Assembly (NCBI GenBank): GCA_016186855.1
Contig: JACPKT010000059.1
Span: 1-11,299 of the forward strand
Direction of reading: 5' to 3'
Length of the DNA stretch: 11,299 nucleotides
From: Candidatus Iainarchaeum sp.
GTDB lineage: Archaea; Iainarchaeota; Iainarchaeia; Iainarchaeales; GW2011-AR10
Shown: in pieces, positions 2 through 11,037 of the stretch
Numbering within the stretch: position 1 is the stretch's first letter
Layout: every line of letters starts with the position of its first letter
Notes under the pieces: generated by a model
The model's input: only the letters and a program-made list of their open reading frames with translations
The model's database searches: none
What the model was told of the DNA's origin: nothing
Made by a program: the position numbers and the translations under genes

Positions 2-2521
2 ATGCCAAGCTATATGGACGACATGATAAGCGAAATAAAGAAAAAAAAACAAGAGACACTCAATGAGTCTGTCAAAGCAGACAATGCTGTTAAAAAGCAG
101 CCTTCTTTAGCGGATAAGATTCCTGAAAACGTTGAAAAAACCGGCATAGAGCTCGAGCTTGAAAAAATAAAAAACGAGCTGAAAGAAAGCGTCAAAGCCC
201 CTTTAGAACCACAAAAAAAAAAGAAAATTGTTTTTGACGAACCGGTCAAAAAAGCACCATTGCAAAAAAAAGAAACAGGATTTGAGTTAAAAGAGGCAAA
301 AGAAAAGCCAGTGGAAAAAGAGGAAGAACAAGAGTTTGCCGCTGAAAGAAAAATTGTCGGCGAAGGCACTGACACGGAAATGATGTCTTCAGAGCAAAAA
401 GAAATCGAAACAGCGGAAAAAGCGCTCATAGACTCTTATGGTGACGTGAAAATTTTCAAAGTAAAGGGAAAATCGCTTTTGCACTACACTGTTCCTGTCC
501 AGCGCCCGACCACAACAGAAAAAACAATCATCAACACAATAAAAGAAGCCGCCACCAGGCTCATTACGATTTCCCCGTACAAAATCAGGGACAACCAGCA
601 AAAAAGAAGCATTTACTACCAAAAGGTACTCGAAATACTGCAAAACTCGCCACAGCTAAACATTCAAAAAAGAAGGTGGTCATTTTACGCAGAGGCCGTA
701 GTGCGCGAAATGGTCGGATACGGAATAATTGACTCGCTTGTAAATGACGACAACCTGGAAGAAATAATGGTGATTGGCCCAAGAATACCTGTGTACATTT
801 TTCACAGAGAATACGAAATGATGACGACAAACATTGAATTCTTTGTAGACCAAGAAATAGTTGACCTAATCAACAGGGTTGCAAGACAGGTTGGAAGAAG
901 AGTTGACATCAGTGCCCCACTCCTTGACGCAAGGCTTCCTGACGGAAGCAGGGTAAACGCAACAATTCCGCCTGCCTCAGTGAGCGGCTCGACAATCACC
1001 ATCAGAAAATTTAGAAAAGACCCTCTGACAATTGTTGATTTGATTAAAAACAACACGCTTGACATTGATTTGGCCGCATTCCTGTGGGTATGCGTTGAAG
1101 GGCTCGGTGTAAAGCCGGCAAACATCCTGATTTCCGGCGGCACAGGCTCTGGAAAAACAACGCTCTTGAATTCACTTGGAGCATTCATTGAACCACAGGA
1201 AAGAATAATAAGCATTGAAGACACTGCAGAACTGAACCTGCCCTTAAAGCACTGGATAAGGTTTGAGGGAAGGCCACCCGGCCTTGAAGGCTCAGGAGAA
1301 CTCACAATAGACATTCTGACAAAAAACTCGCTTCGAATGAGGCCTGACAGAGTAATGGTCGGAGAAATACGCCACGCAGAAGCATTCAGCCTATTCACGG
1401 CCATGAACACGGGACACGATGGCAGATTGAGTAATGATGCATTAATTCAACTTTCAAATGGAAATTTAGTTGAAATAGAAGAATTTGTTAACAAAGTATT
1501 TGAAGAAAAAACTTCCGTAAAAGAGGGGGAATTTGAGTTTGCAGAAGTTAGTGAAAAAATATTTGTGCCAAGCCTCAATAAACAAACGTTAAAAATTGAA
1601 GACAAAGAAGTAACGCATGTTTGGAGAAAAAAATCTGAAAGTGAAATAATAAAAATAAAATTACAGTCTGGAAAAACAATTTCACTTACACCTGACCACC
1701 CGATTTACAGAATCAACAACGGAATAGAAGAAATAAATGCCGGCAACGCAAAAGAAGGAGATTACATTTGCGTTCTACAAAAATTTAAAAGCAATGCAAC
1801 GAAAAAATTGGAAAACCACACTTTTGCCAATAATGCATCAAACAAGTACGGCAAAACACTGCTGCAAATTTTGGAAAAAAACATAAAAACAATGAATTCA
1901 AATGACCTAAAAATATTAAATGAATGCGGATTGCAAGCGGAAGAAATTGTTTTAATCACCACTGTAACAGAAAATGAACCAGGCTATGATTTGACAGTAA
2001 AAGGCAACCACAGCTATATAGCAAACGGCGTCATTGTGTCAAACTGCATGGGAACAGTGCACGCAAACTCTGCAAAAGAAACCGTCATCCGGGTGACTTC
2101 TCCTCCAATGAATGTGCCAGAGGTAATGCTGAGCGGGCTGGACATTATTGTTGTTGAGCAGAGGCTTCACGACAAAAAAATGGGAACCATTAGGAGAATA
2201 ACGGACATTTCAGAAGTAAGCGGGGTATTAGAGGGAAAAACCGCTACAAAACTCATTTACGAGTACGACCACGTGGCAGACAAGTTAAAGCGCACAAAAA
2301 ACGAAATAACTTTTTTGAAAATACTCCAAAGGTTCACGGGCTGGTCAAGCGAAAAAATGAACCAAGAGCTTGAAAAAAGAAAAAAATTTTTGAAATACAT
2401 TGTGGACAAAAAAATAAGGAAAATGCAGGACGTTTACGACGCCTGCCAGAAATTTGTTTACGAGCAAAGCATGGAAGTAGAAAAAAATGCCAATACTGGA
2501 CGACTTAAGAAAAAAAATTGA
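2..2521 (+). CDS. Type II/IV secretion ATPase (TadA/VirB11-like, KlbA type) with in-frame intein
   Basis: Hexameric cytoplasmic ATPase expected to drive assembly of the pilins encoded downstream. The precursor is 839 aa; removing the intein leaves 632 aa. Residues 1-150 are Lys/Glu-rich and low in complexity, followed by the N-terminal domain of the family and the RecA-like core: Walker A GGTGSGKTT at 379-387 (Lys385), Asp box ISIEDTAEL at 403-411, Walker B region MRPDRVMVGEIR with Glu455, and a His box MGTVHANS with His687. The intein (475-681) separates the Walker B region from the His box, so an unspliced protein should be inactive. The 3' end overlaps the first TadC-like gene by 35 nt, indicating one operon. 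The ATG lies at the window edge, so its ribosome binding site is unseen and the gene could start further upstream; a second ATG four codons on is possible. The family call is firm; assignment to pili rather than secretion is inferred from the neighbours. Confidence 0.93.
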   Translation: MPSYMDDMISEIKKKKQETLNESVKADNAVKKQPSLADKIPENVEKTGIELELEKIKNELKESVKAPLEPQKKKKIVFDEPVKKAPLQKKETGFELKEAKEKPVEKEEEQEFAAERKIVGEGTDTEMMSSEQKEIETAEKALIDSYGDVKIFKVKGKSLLHYTVPVQRPTTTEKTIINTIKEAATRLITISPYKIRDNQQKRSIYYQKVLEILQNSPQLNIQKRRWSFYAEAVVREMVGYGIIDSLVNDDNLEEIMVIGPRIPVYIFHREYEMMTTNIEFFVDQEIVDLINRVARQVGRRVDISAPLLDARLPDGSRVNATIPPASVSGSTITIRKFRKDPLTIVDLIKNNTLDIDLAAFLWVCVEGLGVKPANILISGGTGSGKTTLLNSLGAFIEPQERIISIEDTAELNLPLKHWIRFEGRPPGLEGSGELTIDILTKNSLRMRPDRVMVGEIRHAEAFSLFTAMNTGHDGRLSNDALIQLSNGNLVEIEEFVNKVFEEKTSVKEGEFEFAEVSEKIFVPSLNKQTLKIEDKEVTHVWRKKSESEIIKIKLQSGKTISLTPDHPIYRINNGIEEINAGNAKEGDYICVLQKFKSNATKKLENHTFANNASNKYGKTLLQILEKNIKTMNSNDLKILNECGLQAEEIVLITTVTENEPGYDLTVKGNHSYIANGVIVSNCMGTVHANSAKETVIRVTSPPMNVPEVMLSGLDIIVVEQRLHDKKMGTIRRITDISEVSGVLEGKTATKLIYEYDHVADKLKRTKNEITFLKILQRFTGWSSEKMNQELEKRKKFLKYIVDKKIRKMQDVYDACQKFVYEQSMEVEKNANTGRLKKKN
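1424..2044 (+). other. KlbA-type mini-intein (207 aa) with non-canonical Arg1
   Basis: Self-splicing insertion of ATPase codons 475-681 between GHDG and CMGTVHANS, an extein sequence that reads continuously once it is removed. Block A is RLSNDALIQLSNG, block B is SLTPDHPIYRI (Thr563, His566), block F is GYDLTVKGNHSYIANG (Asp663, His670), and the end is VSN followed by Cys682. The Ser-Asn end and +1 Cys match what I remember of the Methanocaldococcus jannaschii KlbA intein, which has this insertion site. That intein is class 2: it starts with Ala, and the +1 Cys attacks the N-terminal junction directly. Here residue 1 is Arg (aga). There is no homing endonuclease motif, but the stretch between blocks B and F is longer than in the 168-residue M. 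jannaschii version. Four 60-nt samples show base composition far below the host gene: 20-33% G+C inside against 48% outside. Whether it splices cannot be read from sequence. Confidence 0.9.
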
Positions 2522-3644
2522 GGAAAAAAAGGAAAAAAAGCTCTCAGTGTCAGCGCAGGGAGAGTACAGCGAAAGCTCAGTGGATGTAGGCGAAGTGGAA
2601 AAAATAGTCAAAAAAATGAAGCAAAAATACAAAGAACAGGGAATTGCATTCGAAGAAGCAGGAGAAGAACTGAGCGCGCTCCGCAGCGTTGTAACAGGAA
2701 CAGCTGCACCACAGGTGACGACACAGACAGTTAACGAGCTCGTGGACTACCAGTCACCGCTAATAAGCGCGCTTGGAAGATATTTTCTCGCGTTTGAAAT
2801 AATGCTAAAACCAGCTGTAAGGGCGCTAAAGGTTTTCCCAGTTTCAAAAGAACTCTCCTATTACCTTTACAGCGCAAACATGAATTATTCAGTGCAACAA
2901 TACATTGCCCTCACCATTGCCACTTCCTCCCTGTTATTCATAATAACGCTGTTTTTCAGCGCAATAGGAAGCGTAATATTCGGTTACCAGATACTGCTTT
3001 CACTAATGCTTGCGTTCGGCGTGTTCATTTTTTCAACAATGATTTTATTGATTATTCCAAAAAGCATTGCGCAAAAAAGAGGAGACGAAATAAGCACTGA
3101 ACTGCCATTTGCTCTAAGACACCTTTCCACAGAGCTTCGCGCAGGAATAGGGTTGTACAAAACGCTTCAGACAATTGCGGCAGCAGATTATGGGCTGCTT
3201 TCAGAAGAATTTTCACGCACAATTATAGAAATAGAAGAAGGAACTGACACCCAGCAGGCGCTCCGCCACTTTGCACTGCGCACACAGTCAAGAGCGCTGA
3301 GAAGCGCCTTGCTCCACATCATAAGGGCACTTAAAACCGGCGGAAACCTTTCAGTGATGATGAGCGAAATTGCCGAGGACGTATCGTTTGAGCTGCGCTT
3401 GCGGATATCTGATTTTGCGGAAAGAATGAATTTTTTCGGGGTAATATTCATTTTCGGGGCAATAGTCGTGCCCGTATTCATTGCAATTTTGGGCTCGATT
3501 GCAAACGCGCCGCTTGGAAGCATTTCATTCACGTCCTCCCTCAATTTTCCCCCAAGAGTCATACTGATTTTTTACACGCTGGTAATGCCAATGATGCTGG
3601 CGTTTTTGGTATTTTACCTGATAATAAACCAGCCGAGAGTGTAA
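2487..3644 (+). CDS. TadC-like inner-membrane platform protein 1 (T2SSF family)
   Basis: Polytopic membrane protein (385 aa) of the PilC/GspF/TadC group, which forms the platform on which the ATPase acts. Residues 1-135 are mostly charged and cytoplasmic. Hydrophobic helices lie at about 139-161 and 166-192, then comes a cytoplasmic T2SSF domain at about 205-305 (LPFALRHLSTELRAGIGLYK, ALKTGGNLSVMM), then helices at about 316-338 and 357-380. The chosen ATG gives MPILDDLRKK and overlaps the ATPase gene by 35 nt. No strong ribosome binding site is visible, but this N-terminus resembles that of the ATPase (MPSYMDDMIS), which supports it; a later in-frame ATG near 2617 would remove 43 residues. 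The next gene starts 3 nt after the stop. The family is clear; the partner ATPase is inferred from adjacency. Confidence 0.9.
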   Translation: MPILDDLRKKIEEKKEKKLSVSAQGEYSESSVDVGEVEKIVKKMKQKYKEQGIAFEEAGEELSALRSVVTGTAAPQVTTQTVNELVDYQSPLISALGRYFLAFEIMLKPAVRALKVFPVSKELSYYLYSANMNYSVQQYIALTIATSSLLFIITLFFSAIGSVIFGYQILLSLMLAFGVFIFSTMILLIIPKSIAQKRGDEISTELPFALRHLSTELRAGIGLYKTLQTIAAADYGLLSEEFSRTIIEIEEGTDTQQALRHFALRTQSRALRSALLHIIRALKTGGNLSVMMSEIAEDVSFELRLRISDFAERMNFFGVIFIFGAIVVPVFIAILGSIANAPLGSISFTSSLNFPPRVILIFYTLVMPMMLAFLVFYLIINQPRV

Positions 3645-3647
3645 CAG

Positions 3648-4586
3648 ATGGAACAAGAACAGGAAAAAACAGGAGTAATGGAAAAAATAAGTTTTCTGCG
3701 CTCTTATGGCAGGATATTGCGCCAGATAAATTTCCAGGTAAACCCGGTTTTCTGGATAGTGCTCTCAACACTCGTTTCCCTCGTTGTTGCAATAATAATA
3801 ATCTACGCCCTGCCAGACTATTACCAGTTTGGAATAATTATTTTCATTGTAATAATCGATTTAATGCTTGGATACCCTTATTTGAAAGCGCTTCAAAGAA
3901 TTGACGAAATTGAAAGAAACCTTCCAGACTCGCTGAAACAAATGGCAGACACTTTGAGGGCGGGCGGAACCTACGAGTACGCGCTGCGCGAAATTGCAGC
4001 AACAGAGTACGGGCCACTAAAAAAAGAACTCAACGATGTTTTAAGAAAACTCGAGGAAGGCGAAAACTTTGAAACATCCTTTTCAACCCTTGCAACCAAC
4101 GTGGACTCAAAACTCATAAAACGCACAGTAACAATAGTAATTGACTCCGTGCGGTCCGGTGCTGGCCTCGCGGACATTTTGGACGAAATCAGCGAGGATG
4201 TGCGGGAAGCGCACAGAATCGGAAAGGAAAGAAAAACAAAAACCATCCTCCAAACCATTTTCATAGTGGCTGCAGGCGCGGTGATTGCGCCAATGATTTT
4301 TGGGTTCGTTTCAACCATAAGCACAGTTCTAATTAATGCTGCTGCGAGAATTGTTTCTGACGCAGAAAGAATAGAGGCAGAACAGGCAGCTGACACCATA
4401 CAGATAGGGATACAAATCTACCTTTTTGCAGAAATTTTAGCCGCAAGCGCAATGATTGCGCTCATGCGAGAGGGACGACTCACCAAAACAATTATATACA
4501 TGCCAATACTATTATTCTTTGCATACATTTGCTACACAATATCAATAGTCTTTTCAGGCGGAATTGTTGGCGGGGTAACCATATGA
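3648..4586 (+). CDS. TadC-like inner-membrane platform protein 2 (T2SSF family)
   Basis: Second platform protein (312 aa), a diverged paralogue of the preceding gene. Helices are predicted at about 33-53 and 60-78. The cytoplasmic T2SSF domain spans about 90-190 (LPDSLKQMADTLRAGGTYEY, DSVRSGAGLADILDEISEDV). Three more hydrophobic segments lie at about 201-223, 252-272 and 281-305, so it has one more than its neighbour. Two adjacent TadC-like genes after a TadA-like ATPase is a common archaeal arrangement; in Methanococcus the Epd pilus has the same parts, where the two probably form a heteromeric platform. The stop codon overlaps the start of the mini-pilin gene (ATGA), which suggests coupled translation and links pilin supply to the machine. 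The ATG lies 3 nt after the previous stop. Confidence 0.9.
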   Translation: MEQEQEKTGVMEKISFLRSYGRILRQINFQVNPVFWIVLSTLVSLVVAIIIIYALPDYYQFGIIIFIVIIDLMLGYPYLKALQRIDEIERNLPDSLKQMADTLRAGGTYEYALREIAATEYGPLKKELNDVLRKLEEGENFETSFSTLATNVDSKLIKRTVTIVIDSVRSGAGLADILDEISEDVREAHRIGKERKTKTILQTIFIVAAGAVIAPMIFGFVSTISTVLINAAARIVSDAERIEAEQAADTIQIGIQIYLFAEILAASAMIALMREGRLTKTIIYMPILLFFAYICYTISIVFSGGIVGGVTI

Positions 4587-4711
4587 GAAAACTTTTAACC
4601 GAACAAAAAGCACAGGTATCGGTTGAAATGCTGGTGCTTTTAGGCGCAGTAGTGTTTGTGGCAATGGTCGTGGGCTTTACGGTAAAAAGCATCGTAAAAG
4701 ACGTCCAATAA
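4583..4711 (+). CDS. Mini-pilin, 42 aa, class III signal peptide
   Basis: Short pilin-like protein: a basic leader, the class III cleavage motif KAQVSVE, then about 20 hydrophobic residues and a short polar tail ending KSIVKDVQ. Cleavage by the prepilin peptidase between Ala10 and Gln11 would leave a 32-residue mature helix with almost no head domain. It may be a minor subunit, an assembly primer or a plug in the platform. The start at 4583 overlaps the TGA of the second TadC-like gene as ATGA. An in-frame ATG at 4529 would add 18 residues lying wholly inside the TadC gene and placed before the charged leader, so 4583 is preferred. No separate promoter is seen, so it should be expressed with the ATPase/TadC operon. 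Pilin class is well supported; exact role unknown. Confidence 0.85.
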   Translation: MRKLLTEQKAQVSVEMLVLLGAVVFVAMVVGFTVKSIVKDVQ

Positions 4712-4763
4712 GTTTAAATAATAGAATTGCAATTATTGTTAGTAATAATTTATTTTTAAACTT
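4710..4763. repeat. Nested inverted repeats around the pilin promoter
   Basis: A 9-bp perfect inverted repeat has arms AAGTTTAAA (4710-4718) and TTTAAACTT (4755-4763). The left arm overlaps the TATA box and the right arm lies just before the ribosome binding site. Inside it, AATTATT (4731-4737) and AATAATT (4744-4750) form a second 7-bp perfect inverted repeat with a 6-nt spacer. This could be an operator for a dimeric repressor or an mRNA structure in the leader. Such A+T-rich DNA makes chance repeats likelier, so function is only suggested. Confidence 0.4.
4713..4720 (+). promoter_or_regulatory. Archaeal TATA box for the six-cysteine pilin gene
   Basis: TTTAAATA matches the archaeal TATA consensus. 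It starts just after the stop of the mini-pilin gene and lies 62 nt before the preferred ATG. Transcription would be expected to begin about 25 nt downstream, near 4745, giving a leader of roughly 35-40 nt that contains the strong ribosome binding site. It would give the major pilin its own transcript, separate from the machine operon. Assigned by position and sequence only; no clear BRE is claimed. Confidence 0.6.
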
Positions 4764-4768
4764 GAAAT

Positions 4769-4774
4769 GGAGGT
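4769..4774 (+). promoter_or_regulatory. Strong Shine-Dalgarno site that decides the pilin start
   Basis: GGAGGT lies 7 nt before the ATG at 4782 and pairs well with the archaeal 16S 3' end. It overlaps an earlier in-frame ATG at 4767, so that codon is unlikely to be the start. It is the strongest such site in the window and fits a highly expressed structural subunit. Confidence 0.8.
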
Positions 4775-4781
4775 AAAGGAA

Positions 4782-5138
4782 ATGAAAGGAAAAGGACAAG
4801 GAGCACTCGAATACTTGCTACTTATCGGCGGGGCAATACTTGTTGCGGTGATAGTAATAAGCATAATAGTAGGGCTTGGTAGTGGAAGTGCAGGAGTAGA
4901 AACCATAAGGGCAGCTGCAAACGCACAGTGCGCAAAATACTCAAAAGATGCTTCATGTGACTCAATCCCTGGTACTGGCAACACTTTAACAACCACCGGA
5001 GCTGATGACAACGTCACATCTGCAAGTTGTCAGTATATGTGCAATTGGGCTGATGCAGTTAATAGATGTATAGCATTGACCGGTGCAACGCCTACAGGCG
5101 GCACATATGGCTATTCAACCGTAGGCGCAAGTTGCTAA
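4782..5138 (+). CDS. Probable major pilin, 118 aa, class III signal, six cysteines
   Basis: Pilin subunit of the type IV pilus-like system. The N-terminus reads MKGKG then QGALEYLLLIGGAILVAV: a short basic leader cleaved before Gln6, Ala instead of the usual Ser at the third mature position, Glu at +5 and a long hydrophobic helix. The mature chain would be 113 residues. The head domain is rich in Gly, Thr and Ala, holds six Cys (an even number, allowing three disulfides outside the cell) and one N-glycosylation sequon (NVT). The start is set by GGAGGT at 4769; an ATG 15 nt earlier overlaps that site. It has its own TATA box upstream and a hairpin terminator 25 nt after the stop, so it forms a single-gene transcript, as expected for the most abundant subunit. 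Major-pilin status is inferred from these signals. Confidence 0.87.
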   Translation: MKGKGQGALEYLLLIGGAILVAVIVISIIVGLGSGSAGVETIRAAANAQCAKYSKDASCDSIPGTGNTLTTTGADDNVTSASCQYMCNWADAVNRCIALTGATPTGGTYGYSTVGASC

Positions 5139-5376: not shown

Positions 5377-6436
5377 GTGCAGGAAGCCGTATTTTTTTTA
5401 ATATCACTCGGTTCTTTAATCATTGCAACATACACTGATTTAAAAGAAAGAATTTGCAGTTGCAAAAAATTCTTTAAACAATTTTTTTGCTGTCGCAATT
5501 GCAACAATTGGAGCATTCATTGGAGCGTATTTGCTTTGGAAAGTGGGCGTATGGGCAGGCGGAGACGTGAAACTGTTCACAGCGCTTGCAGCGCTCAACC
5601 CTGTTAATTACGCTTTCATTGGAGATTTTTTCGGATTGGATAAAAGCAGTTTTGGAACAATTGATTTGCCAGTTTACCCGCTAACCCTTTTTGTTTTCAG
5701 CATTTTCTCAATGTTTCCAGTGGCAATACTTGTCACCATAAAAGGCATTGCAAAAAGAAAAGAACTGCAGAAAAAAATTGCAGGTGAAATAAAAGCAAAA
5801 ACGGCGGCAATTTTTTTTTCAGCATTGCTGGTTTCAGGAGTTTTAACAATAGCCGCAGTGTTTAATTTAAATAGTGCAATTGCAGTTGTTGCGCTAATTT
5901 TGGCTGGTTTTTTTGGAAAAAAAATAACCGGAATAATTGGAACAGTTGCTTTTGTGGGAGGAGCTTATTTTAGCGGGACAATAATAATCCAGCAATTTGC
6001 AATAGTGTTTTTTTTCCTTTTTTTCCTCTTTGTTTTGATAAAACTTTACCTGCTTGCAAAAAGCGATTTACTGGTTGAAAAAATTCCCGTAGCTGAATTA
6101 AAAGAAGGAATGATTTGCGCAGAAACAATTTTAGTGGAAAACGGGAAAGCAAAAAAAATCAAGCCGCTTTCAATGAAAACCGTTATTAACCACTTGCAAA
6201 ACAATAATGTGGAGGCACTGATCTCAAACTTGAAGCCCAAAGGAAAAGTCCTTGCAGACCAAAACGCAGGCGGGCTGACAAACGAACAAATAAAGGGATT
6301 AAAAGAAGCCGCAAAAACAGGAGAAATTGAAGGGGTTTTATTGGTGAAAAAAAGCGTTGCATTTGTTCCAGCAGTGCTGATGGCTTATCTTATCACACAA
6401 ACAATTGGGGATGCTCTATGGCTTTTAATTTTCTGA
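5377..6436 (+). pseudogene. Prepilin peptidase (A24 family, EppA-like), frameshifted
   Basis: Membrane aspartic protease that should cleave class III signals such as those of the neighbouring pilins. Frame one starts at GTG 5377 and carries a first helix and the first catalytic motif YTDLKERI (Asp21), then runs into non-family sequence to 5607. The rest is in another frame, open from 5444 to 6436: it continues NSLNNFFAVAIATIGAF, holds the second catalytic motif AGGDVKLF (Asp codon 5564-5566), several membrane helices, and a C-terminal soluble domain of the archaeal A24 type (ELKEGMICAE, GLTNEQIKGLKEA), ending in one more helix. A +1 shift between about 5452 and 5470 joins them; the A6 run at 5464-5469 is the likeliest site. 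Joined, it would be about 353 aa with both Asp residues present. The first Gly of the usual GxGD is Ala. It may be a true mutation, sequence error, or expression through slippage. Its 3' end overlaps the next gene by 19 nt. Confidence 0.82.
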
Positions 6437-9895: not shown

Positions 9896-10450
9896 ATGAA
9901 AACCGTTTTCATTATTTTGGACGGATTAGGCGATCGGCCCATAAAAGAATTTAAAGGAAAAACTCCGCTTGAAGCTGCAAAGCGGCCAAACCTGAACAGG
10001 CTTGCAAAAAACGGCAACACGGGAATGCTTTACGCACTCGGACCCGGCGTAAATACAGGAAGCGATACTGCACAGCTTTCAATTTTTGGCTACGAGCCGG
10101 AAAAATACTATTTTGGAAGGGGACCAATAGAGTGCCTTGGAATTGGAATGAAATTGCAGGAAAACGATGTGTGCTTTCGAGCAAACCTGTGCACTCTTGA
10201 CGAAAACGGAATAGTAGTGGATAGAAGGGCAGGAAGAATCGATTCAAGCAAAGAGTTTGTAGAAGAACTTGATGGATTGGAAATTGATGGGGTAAAATTT
10301 CTCGTGCAGCCCGCAACAGGATACAGGTCATGCATTGTCTTAAGGGGGGCCTGGTTATCTGAAAAAGTTTCTTCAAACGACCCAAAAAAAACAGGCACTG
10401 CGCCGCTGAAAATAGAGCATCTGGAAAACTCTTTGGAGGCATTGAATTGA
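9896..10450 (+). CDS. apgM: Phosphoglycerate mutase, cofactor-independent archaeal type, N-terminal part
   Basis: First 184 residues of ApgM, which interconverts 3- and 2-phosphoglycerate in glycolysis/gluconeogenesis. It carries the metal-binding start IILDGLGDRP (Asp9), the catalytic serine motif TGSDTAQLSIFGYEP (Ser56) and the conserved FRANL and RAGRI stretches (94-98, 112-115). It ends at TGA 10448-10450 right where the interdomain linker should begin (LEALN). The second part follows in the -1 frame and overlaps as TTGA. The ATG is 16 nt after the JAMM gene. Alone this part lacks most metal ligands and would not be active. See the next gene for the rest. Confidence 0.88.
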   Translation: MKTVFIILDGLGDRPIKEFKGKTPLEAAKRPNLNRLAKNGNTGMLYALGPGVNTGSDTAQLSIFGYEPEKYYFGRGPIECLGIGMKLQENDVCFRANLCTLDENGIVVDRRAGRIDSSKEFVEELDGLEIDGVKFLVQPATGYRSCIVLRGAWLSEKVSSNDPKKTGTAPLKIEHLENSLEALN

Positions 10451-11037
10451 AAAAGCAAAAAAAACCGCAGGCAAACTATCTACTATTGCGCGGGGCTGGA
10501 AAAATGCAGCACGTTCCATCTTTCCAGCAAAGGTACGGCTTGAAAGCAGCATGCATTGCAGGTGCCGGGCTGTACAAAGGAATTGGAAGAATGCTTGGGA
10601 TGAAAGTGATTGAAGTGAAGGGCGCAACAGGGCTTGCAGAAACAGACATTTCGGCAAAAATAAACGCGTGCATTGGCGCACTCAAAGAATTTGAATTTGT
10701 TTTCCTGCACTTAAAGGCACCAGACATTTTCGGAGAAGACGGGAACTTTCTGAAAAAAAAAGAAATAATTGAAAGGTTCGACAAAGAATTGGCGCCACTA
10801 ATGGGGCAAGACATTCTTTTAGTAGTGACCGGAGACCACTCCACGCCATGCTCGTTAAAAACGCACTCTGGTGACGCGGTGCCATTTTTAATGCACGGAA
10901 ACGGCATCAGAACAGACTTTGTAAAAGAATTCGGCGAACGCGCATGCGCTAACGGTGGGCTGGGCTTTTTCTGCGGAAAAGACACAATGAACATCGTGAC
11001 TACAACGCTTGGCATACAGAAAAAAACAGGCGAATAA
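10447..11037 (+). CDS. apgM: Phosphoglycerate mutase, cofactor-independent archaeal type, C-terminal part
   Basis: Second part of ApgM (196 aa if the TTG at 10447 is used). Family signatures are LLLRGAG (12-18), YGLKAACIAGAGLYKGIGR (30-48), the metal ligands in KAPD (Asp93) and GEDGN (Asp98), TGDHSTP (Asp130, His131) and KTHSGD (His140), then the conserved GGLGFFCG near the end. With the first part the total is 380 aa, against a usual 400-430, and the shortage lies at the junction: about 20-25 residues of linker before ANYLLLRGAG are missing. The TTG overlaps the stop of the first part (TTGA), so translation could be coupled and the two pieces might assemble; equally it could be a decaying gene or sequence error. 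No residue needed for catalysis appears lost. Confidence 0.85.
   Translation: MKKQKKPQANYLLLRGAGKMQHVPSFQQRYGLKAACIAGAGLYKGIGRMLGMKVIEVKGATGLAETDISAKINACIGALKEFEFVFLHLKAPDIFGEDGNFLKKKEIIERFDKELAPLMGQDILLVVTGDHSTPCSLKTHSGDAVPFLMHGNGIRTDFVKEFGERACANGGLGFFCGKDTMNIVTTTLGIQKKTGE

Follow-up and report, generated by a model that had tools for sequence, protein, structure and literature searches.

An intein of class 2 type with arginine at its first position in an archaeal pilus ATPase

The pilus ATPase gene and its intein

The first gene of the window (the whole 11,299-nucleotide stretch of DNA analysed here) encodes an ATPase precursor that carries an intein. Its frame of 839 codons runs without a stop or a frameshift, and Pfam places T2SSE at precursor residues 241–475 and Intein_splicing at residues 486–681. 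Genes for T2SSF-type proteins, for proteins with class III signal peptides, and for a product with an archaeal peptidase A24 C-terminal domain (Pfam) follow downstream, which makes the ATPase of an archaeal type IV pilus locus the most likely identity of the host protein. The features of the precursor and its neighbors are given in Table 1.

Table 1. Features of the intein-bearing ATPase gene and neighboring pilus genes, with positions in the window.
Feature	Position	Strand	Basis or conservation
KlbA/TadA-type pilus ATPase precursor	2-2521	+	839 aa, first ORF of the window
N-extein, 474 aa, ending NTGHDG, with Walker A GGTGSGKTT	2..1423	+	Pfam T2SSE, E 2.5e-42
KlbA-site mini-intein, 207 aa (precursor residues 475-681)	1424..2044	+	Pfam Intein_splicing 1.1e-21; TIGR01445/TIGR01443
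Arg1 of the intein, codon aga, Arg475 of the precursor	1424..1426	+	sequence reading
Thr89, block B position 7 (B:7)	1688..1690	+	Thr in 108/118 class-2-like rows, Ser in the other 10
His92, block B position 10 (B:10)	1697..1699	+	invariant, 118/118 class-2-like rows
Gly187, block F position 2 (F:2), second oddity	1982..1984	+	Gly in 0/117 other class-2-like rows
Asp189, block F position 4 (F:4)	1988..1990	+	invariant, 118/118 class-2-like rows
Ser206-Asn207, block G penultimate Ser and terminal Asn (G:6, G:7)	2039..2044	+	Ser 114/118, Asn 118/118
C-extein starting with Cys+1 (CMGTVHAN), 158 aa plus stop	2045..2521	+	ORF reading
Two T2SSF-type pilus platform proteins	2487..4586	+	Pfam PF00482
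Two small pilin-like proteins with class III signal peptides	4529..5138	+	Pfam PF04021

The N-extein ends in NTGHDG, the intein runs from RLSNDALIQLSNG to GVIVSN, and the C-extein opens with CMGTVHAN, so that splicing is predicted to yield an ATPase of 632 residues (839 − 207). An earlier note, made from the sequence alone, had read the first intein codon as aga, encoding Arg475, and had given the intein 207 residues, a VSN end before Cys, and a spliced product of 632 residues. The codon and all of these features were confirmed, the Cys being Cys682 of the precursor. No homing endonuclease domain was matched in the 207-residue intein by profile search.

A boundary mis-set by one residue is ruled out by intein-free homologs. 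In all nine such alleles, caught by pattern among the fetched loci, NTGHxG runs straight into [C/S]xGT[V/I]HAN with no residue between, so Arg1 must be the first residue of the intein. The 130 inteins collected for comparison were picked out by a search pattern that contains these two motifs, so they are no separate test of the boundary. In a 13-row alignment, no gap falls between residue 1 and the block A motif, and the spacing is the same as in 12 relatives. The intein has the Hint/intein splicing domain fold, and a structure model of this piece of the window (mean pLDDT 85.4) has Arg1 as model residue 11; the ranges aligned by VIA-align open with this residue opposite residue 1 of solved inteins, among them 2cw7, 2lqm, and 2in8.

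The N-extein is matched in all 53 genomes searched, once in the source genome and one to eight times in each of the other 52. The source assembly is 817 kb long and 60% complete; no spare copy of the ATPase is known in it, and copies may be missing from it.

Two other genes of the window appear to be interrupted. The prepilin peptidase gene (5377-6436) has an apparent frameshift at about 5455-5530, where six consecutive A lie at 5464; by eye, the parts encoding TDLKERI and GGDVKLF lie in different frames, and its first part (ORF 5377-5607) has no Pfam peptidase match. The phosphoglycerate mutase gene (9896-11037) consists of two ORFs in different frames, with a run of eight A from 10457, and both halves have Pfam matches. 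A probable frameshift was also seen by eye in a Cdc48-like gene on another contig of the same genome (G000:C137). Frameshifts near runs of A mean that either the assembly has indels or the organism has broken genes.

Class 2 features and relatives of the intein

Inteins of class 2 have been defined as those whose residue 1 is other than Ser, Thr, or Cys (PMC3196547, 2011; PMC5222942), and their splicing route has been described (PMC4031507, PMC5222942, PMC10663303). In the accessible text of a 2014 review, Ala1 is given for all class 2 inteins, and the activation of the peptide bond for direct attack is said not to be fully determined (PMC4031507). A 2020 review adds the name Alanine-inteins (PMC7765530), so that both reviews, in the text available, take Ala1 as the signature of the class; a figure legend elsewhere marks the characteristic Ala (PMC7664689).

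The intein in the window interrupts a KlbA-type ATPase at the GHDG/CxGT site and has the Cys+1, Thr B:7, His B:10, Asp F:4, Ser G:6, and Asn G:7 of class 2. Its residue 1 is not Cys, Ser, or Thr, which agrees with class 2 and sets it apart from class 1. Since Arg1 stands in place of Ala1, it is filed as a variant of class 2 type and not as a standard member. This is in line with the earlier note, which had reported the other motifs intact and had suggested a new class 2 variant; the catalytic residues other than residue 1 are of class 2 type and are followed by Cys+1. Assignment to class 3 was rejected: the WCT triplet of that class is Trp B:12, Cys F:4, and Thr G:5 in the accessible text of PMC3196547, and the corresponding residues here are Ile94, Asp189, and Val205.

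The solved sequence nearest to it is the class 2 KlbA intein of Methanocaldococcus jannaschii (Mja; 2jmz/2jnq; E 6e-25), which also ranks first in identity (42%) among 50 listed structural matches. The two share the host protein type, the insertion site, blocks A, B, F, and G, and the residues Thr B:7, His B:10, Asp F:4, Ser G:6, Asn G:7, and Cys+1. They differ in residue 1 (Ala in Mja KlbA, Arg in the window), in length (168 versus 207 residues), and at F:2 (Ile versus Gly). The nearest relative is the intein of 191 residues in the 818-residue precursor P0002, which is 77% identical to the window protein in the N-extein, 62% in the intein, and 75% in the C-extein, and has the same VSN end before Cys; it differs from the window in having Ala1 and Val at F:2. 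In the other class-2-like inteins, F:2 is mostly Val, Ile, or Leu.

A further group of inteins (P0022, P0028, P0074, P0012, and others) begins with Met or Ile and thus, like the window intein, has neither a nucleophile nor Ala at residue 1. These inteins also keep Cys+1, His B:10, Asp F:4, Ser G:6, and Asn G:7. Unlike the window intein, they have a hydrophobic residue 1, are 437–536 residues long in 9 of 10 cases, and have Ser at B:7 in 8 of 10. Among the five of their records that name an organism, four name Diapherotrites or Micrarchaeota, and P0057 names Moranbacteria. Eight Cys1 inteins (P0098, P0100, and six others) share the insertion site and ATPase family with the window and differ from it in being of class 1 type, with Cys1, a GN end, and Ser+1.

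Residue 1 across the KlbA insertion site

The earlier note had called for a count of residue 1 across KlbA-site inteins. The 130 distinct inteins collected at this site have Ala at residue 1 in 109 cases, Met in 9, Cys in 8, Ser in 2, Ile in 1, and Arg in 1; the arginine of the window is the single charged residue. The pool was drawn from 122 proteins and 157 loci and comprises the inteins in them whose two junctions could both be read, with records reached twice by different tools collapsed by counting distinct sequences. Inteins without both junction patterns were omitted, and the sample, which was seeded with KlbA-type sequences, is broad and not a complete census.

The proteins came from a search with 681 matches, of which the best 120 were used, and from two further searches that added two proteins. 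These best 120 of 681 have Ala in 98, Met in 10, Cys in 7, Ser in 2, Ile in 1, and Arg in 1, with one unread; the one unread by the first pattern, P0105, was later found to have Cys1 after GQDG. The genomes searched comprised 87 of the window's phylum and 301, 115, 371, and 36 of the phyla of four other carriers, with a cut-off of E 1e-20 or 1e-25, and part of the matches were fetched (two in the phylum of 36 genomes were left out). Scans of genome contigs gave 41 loci, and scans of viral contigs gave 18 weak loci, examined by junction patterns alone. Twelve rows of an earlier, smaller pool contain no complete intein: nine intein-free alleles, two intein fragments (L066 with Met1 and L103 with Ala1), and the second frame of L067.

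The residue that follows the intein varies together with residue 1. All 8 Cys1 inteins are followed by Ser+1, and all 122 others by Cys+1. The nine empty alleles, all from the window's phylum, have Ser+1 in seven cases and Cys+1 in two. Because the empty site mostly has Ser, Cys+1 is not merely the default of the host protein; it tracks the state without Cys1, as expected of the class 2 route, under which that state needs it. Among the 122 inteins with Cys+1, 13 lack Ala1, the window included. The statement of the earlier note that class 2 inteins begin with Ala therefore holds for the majority and is not universal, since residue 1 is also Met (9), Ser (2), or Ile (1) in inteins with Cys+1. 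For the two Ser1 inteins with Cys+1, either route is conceivable.

The history of the position was followed on a tree of 126 splicing domains, built by a quick method with SH-aLRT support only and with the residue 1 column excluded. Residue 1 changes at least 8 times on this tree, and 6 changes between Ala and other residues are required even if only the starred branches are counted; Met1 needs three changes, or at least two on the starred branches. His B:10, Asp F:4, and Asn G:7 show no change at all. This difference indicates that Ala at residue 1 is a preference, without the strict need seen at the catalytic positions. Residue 1 is nevertheless the 25th most conserved of 158 columns when changes are counted by parsimony (8 versus 28 for the median column), which means that Ala is preferred for some reason. 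As judged from these counts, Ala1 is a strong habit and not a strict requirement, and the pattern suggests that a change at the first position is compatible with an otherwise conserved machinery.

The row nearest to the window on the tree is P0002 (support 74), and P0023 joins the two with support 98. Both neighbors have Ala1, so Arg1 is most simply derived from Ala1, through at least two base changes. The end branch of the window (0.325) is not longer than that of P0002 (0.386). In a comparison with 117 other class-2-like inteins, the window intein agrees with the common residue in all 7 columns conserved at 97%, in all 19 conserved at 90%, and in 31 of the 32 conserved at 80% or more, the sole departure being residue 1.

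The Met1 inteins (L012, L013, L059, P0057, P0076, P0085, P0086, P0090, and P0121) form at least two, and probably three, separate lineages, the largest of which (7 rows) also has Ser B:7. An association between a residue 1 other than Ala and Ser B:7 (9 of 13, versus 1 of 105 with Ala1) was not accepted as covariation: it cannot be separated from shared descent, the 5 independent pairs being too few for a sign test. One Met1 mini-intein (P0028-P0030) was found on several contigs of differing sizes, so that this departure, at least, does not stem from one faulty contig. The Cys1/Ser+1 inteins (P0098, P0100, P0101, P0104, P0105, P0109, P0112, and P0119) form one clade with support 100 and represent a class 1 lineage in the same KlbA site.

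Close carriers with named records (L007-L013) are labeled Diapherotrites in most cases, which points to a Diapherotrites-type archaeon as the source of the window. Archaeal-type KlbA inteins also occur in records named Falkowbacteria (L010) and Moranbacteria (P0057). The L010 contig belongs to a genome (G023) placed in the window's order, so the name Falkowbacteria looks like a labeling or binning error.

Probable splicing with arginine at the first position

The intein probably splices by the class 2 route with Arg1 tolerated as a bystander; both splicing itself and the neutrality of Arg1 are what we infer from sequence comparison. Residue 1 would have changed, most simply from Ala to Arg, with the rest of the active site intact. 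Asp189 would activate the thiol of Cys+1, while Thr89 and His92 would hold the peptide bond between Gly(−1) and Arg1. Direct attack by Cys+1 on this bond would then give a branched intermediate, cyclization of Asn207 would release the intein, and an S-to-N acyl shift would ligate GHDG to CMGTVHAN, yielding the ATPase of predicted size. Arg1 would take no chemical part. Tolerance is expected because nothing in the direct-attack route needs the side chain of residue 1, and a nucleophile at this position should be dispensable where Cys+1 is present. Tolerance is the likeliest reading because Ala1 has been lost repeatedly within the family. Counting against it, Arg1 has been seen once, and the other departures (Met, Ser, Ile, and Cys) include no charged residue. 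Because the insertion splits the conserved GHDG/CMGTVHAN region, the unspliced precursor is probably inactive.

Alternatively, Arg1 may slow the direct attack, so that precursor builds up and pilus ATPase activity comes to depend on temperature, redox state, or pH. The conservation of residue 1 fits such an effect, a bulky cation beside the scissile bond could plausibly hinder attack, and conditional splicing has been described for other inteins in the accessible text of two papers (PMC5790916, PMC6195587). However, conservation, which is all that was examined for a signal of regulation in the sequence, gave none, and the bulky residues Met1 and Ile1 occur repeatedly in relatives that retain His B:10, Asp F:4, Ser G:6, and Asn G:7; slowed splicing, the second suggestion of the earlier note, thus found no support here and is unlikely. 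A dead or dying intein, with splicing lost and the ATPase not made, would account for two unique residues, Arg1 and Gly187, in a window where two other genes look frame-shifted. This is rather improbable given a frame that is open across all 839 codons, the retention of all other conserved columns, and an end branch that does not exceed the nearest row's in length. Gly187 could provide room for Arg1, or it could reflect loosened constraint. An active contribution of Arg1, with its guanidinium at the N-terminal junction stabilizing the oxyanion or lowering the pKa of Cys+1 and Gly187 making room, seems very doubtful.

The arginine might also be an artifact of sequencing or assembly, the true residue being Ser, Thr, Gly, or Ala. 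The allele has been observed once, with one sequence from one contig in its 90% cluster and one match at 100% in the genome, and the assembly has apparent frameshifts near the runs of A at about 5464 and 10457 of the window and in the Cdc48-like gene. A single base change would lead to AGA from Ser (AGY), Thr (ACA), Gly (GGA), Ile (ATA), or Lys (AAA), and from no codon of Ala (GCN) or Cys (TGY), which need two. The codon lies outside any homopolymer, the adjacent residues align unshifted, and five other inteins of the same genome (one with its N-terminal end cut) are by eye ordinary class 1 inteins, so an error here has little probability. AGA is the commonest arginine codon in nine reading frames of the window (37 of 87 Arg codons). 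Use of another nucleophile, as in class 3 or from another internal residue, would explain an intein without a nucleophile at residue 1, as class 3 inteins likewise have none there; with no WCT triplet in this intein, such a route can be given almost no weight.

With tolerance of Arg1 as the preferred reading, this is a singular residue in an otherwise standard intein of class 2 type, and thus a natural test of mechanism and not a new kind of element. The literature searched, as far as its accessible text extends, makes no mention of a class 2 intein without Ala1; key primary papers lie outside its coverage, and such an intein may already be in print. Nor were splicing data for KlbA inteins without Ala1 found in this text, the papers likeliest to treat residue 1 mutants being outside it as well. 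The KlbA site offers a natural series in which residue 1 is Ala, Met, Ile, Ser, or Arg in inteins followed by Cys+1 and Cys in inteins followed by Ser+1, and this series can serve as a panel for the question of class 2 activation. Arg1 is the hardest test in it: splicing of this intein would mean that the route depends little on the side chain at residue 1.

Further inteins are present in the source genome at four loci (L158-L161, on G000 contigs C128, C80, C89, and C137) and are apparently of class 1. With genes named by eye, MCM carries two, and a Lon-type protease, RNA polymerase A′, and Cdc48 carry one each; a probable second Cdc48 intein lies in a shifted frame. EF-2-like inteins (gene likewise named by eye) begin with Cys in three loci that have the junction pattern.
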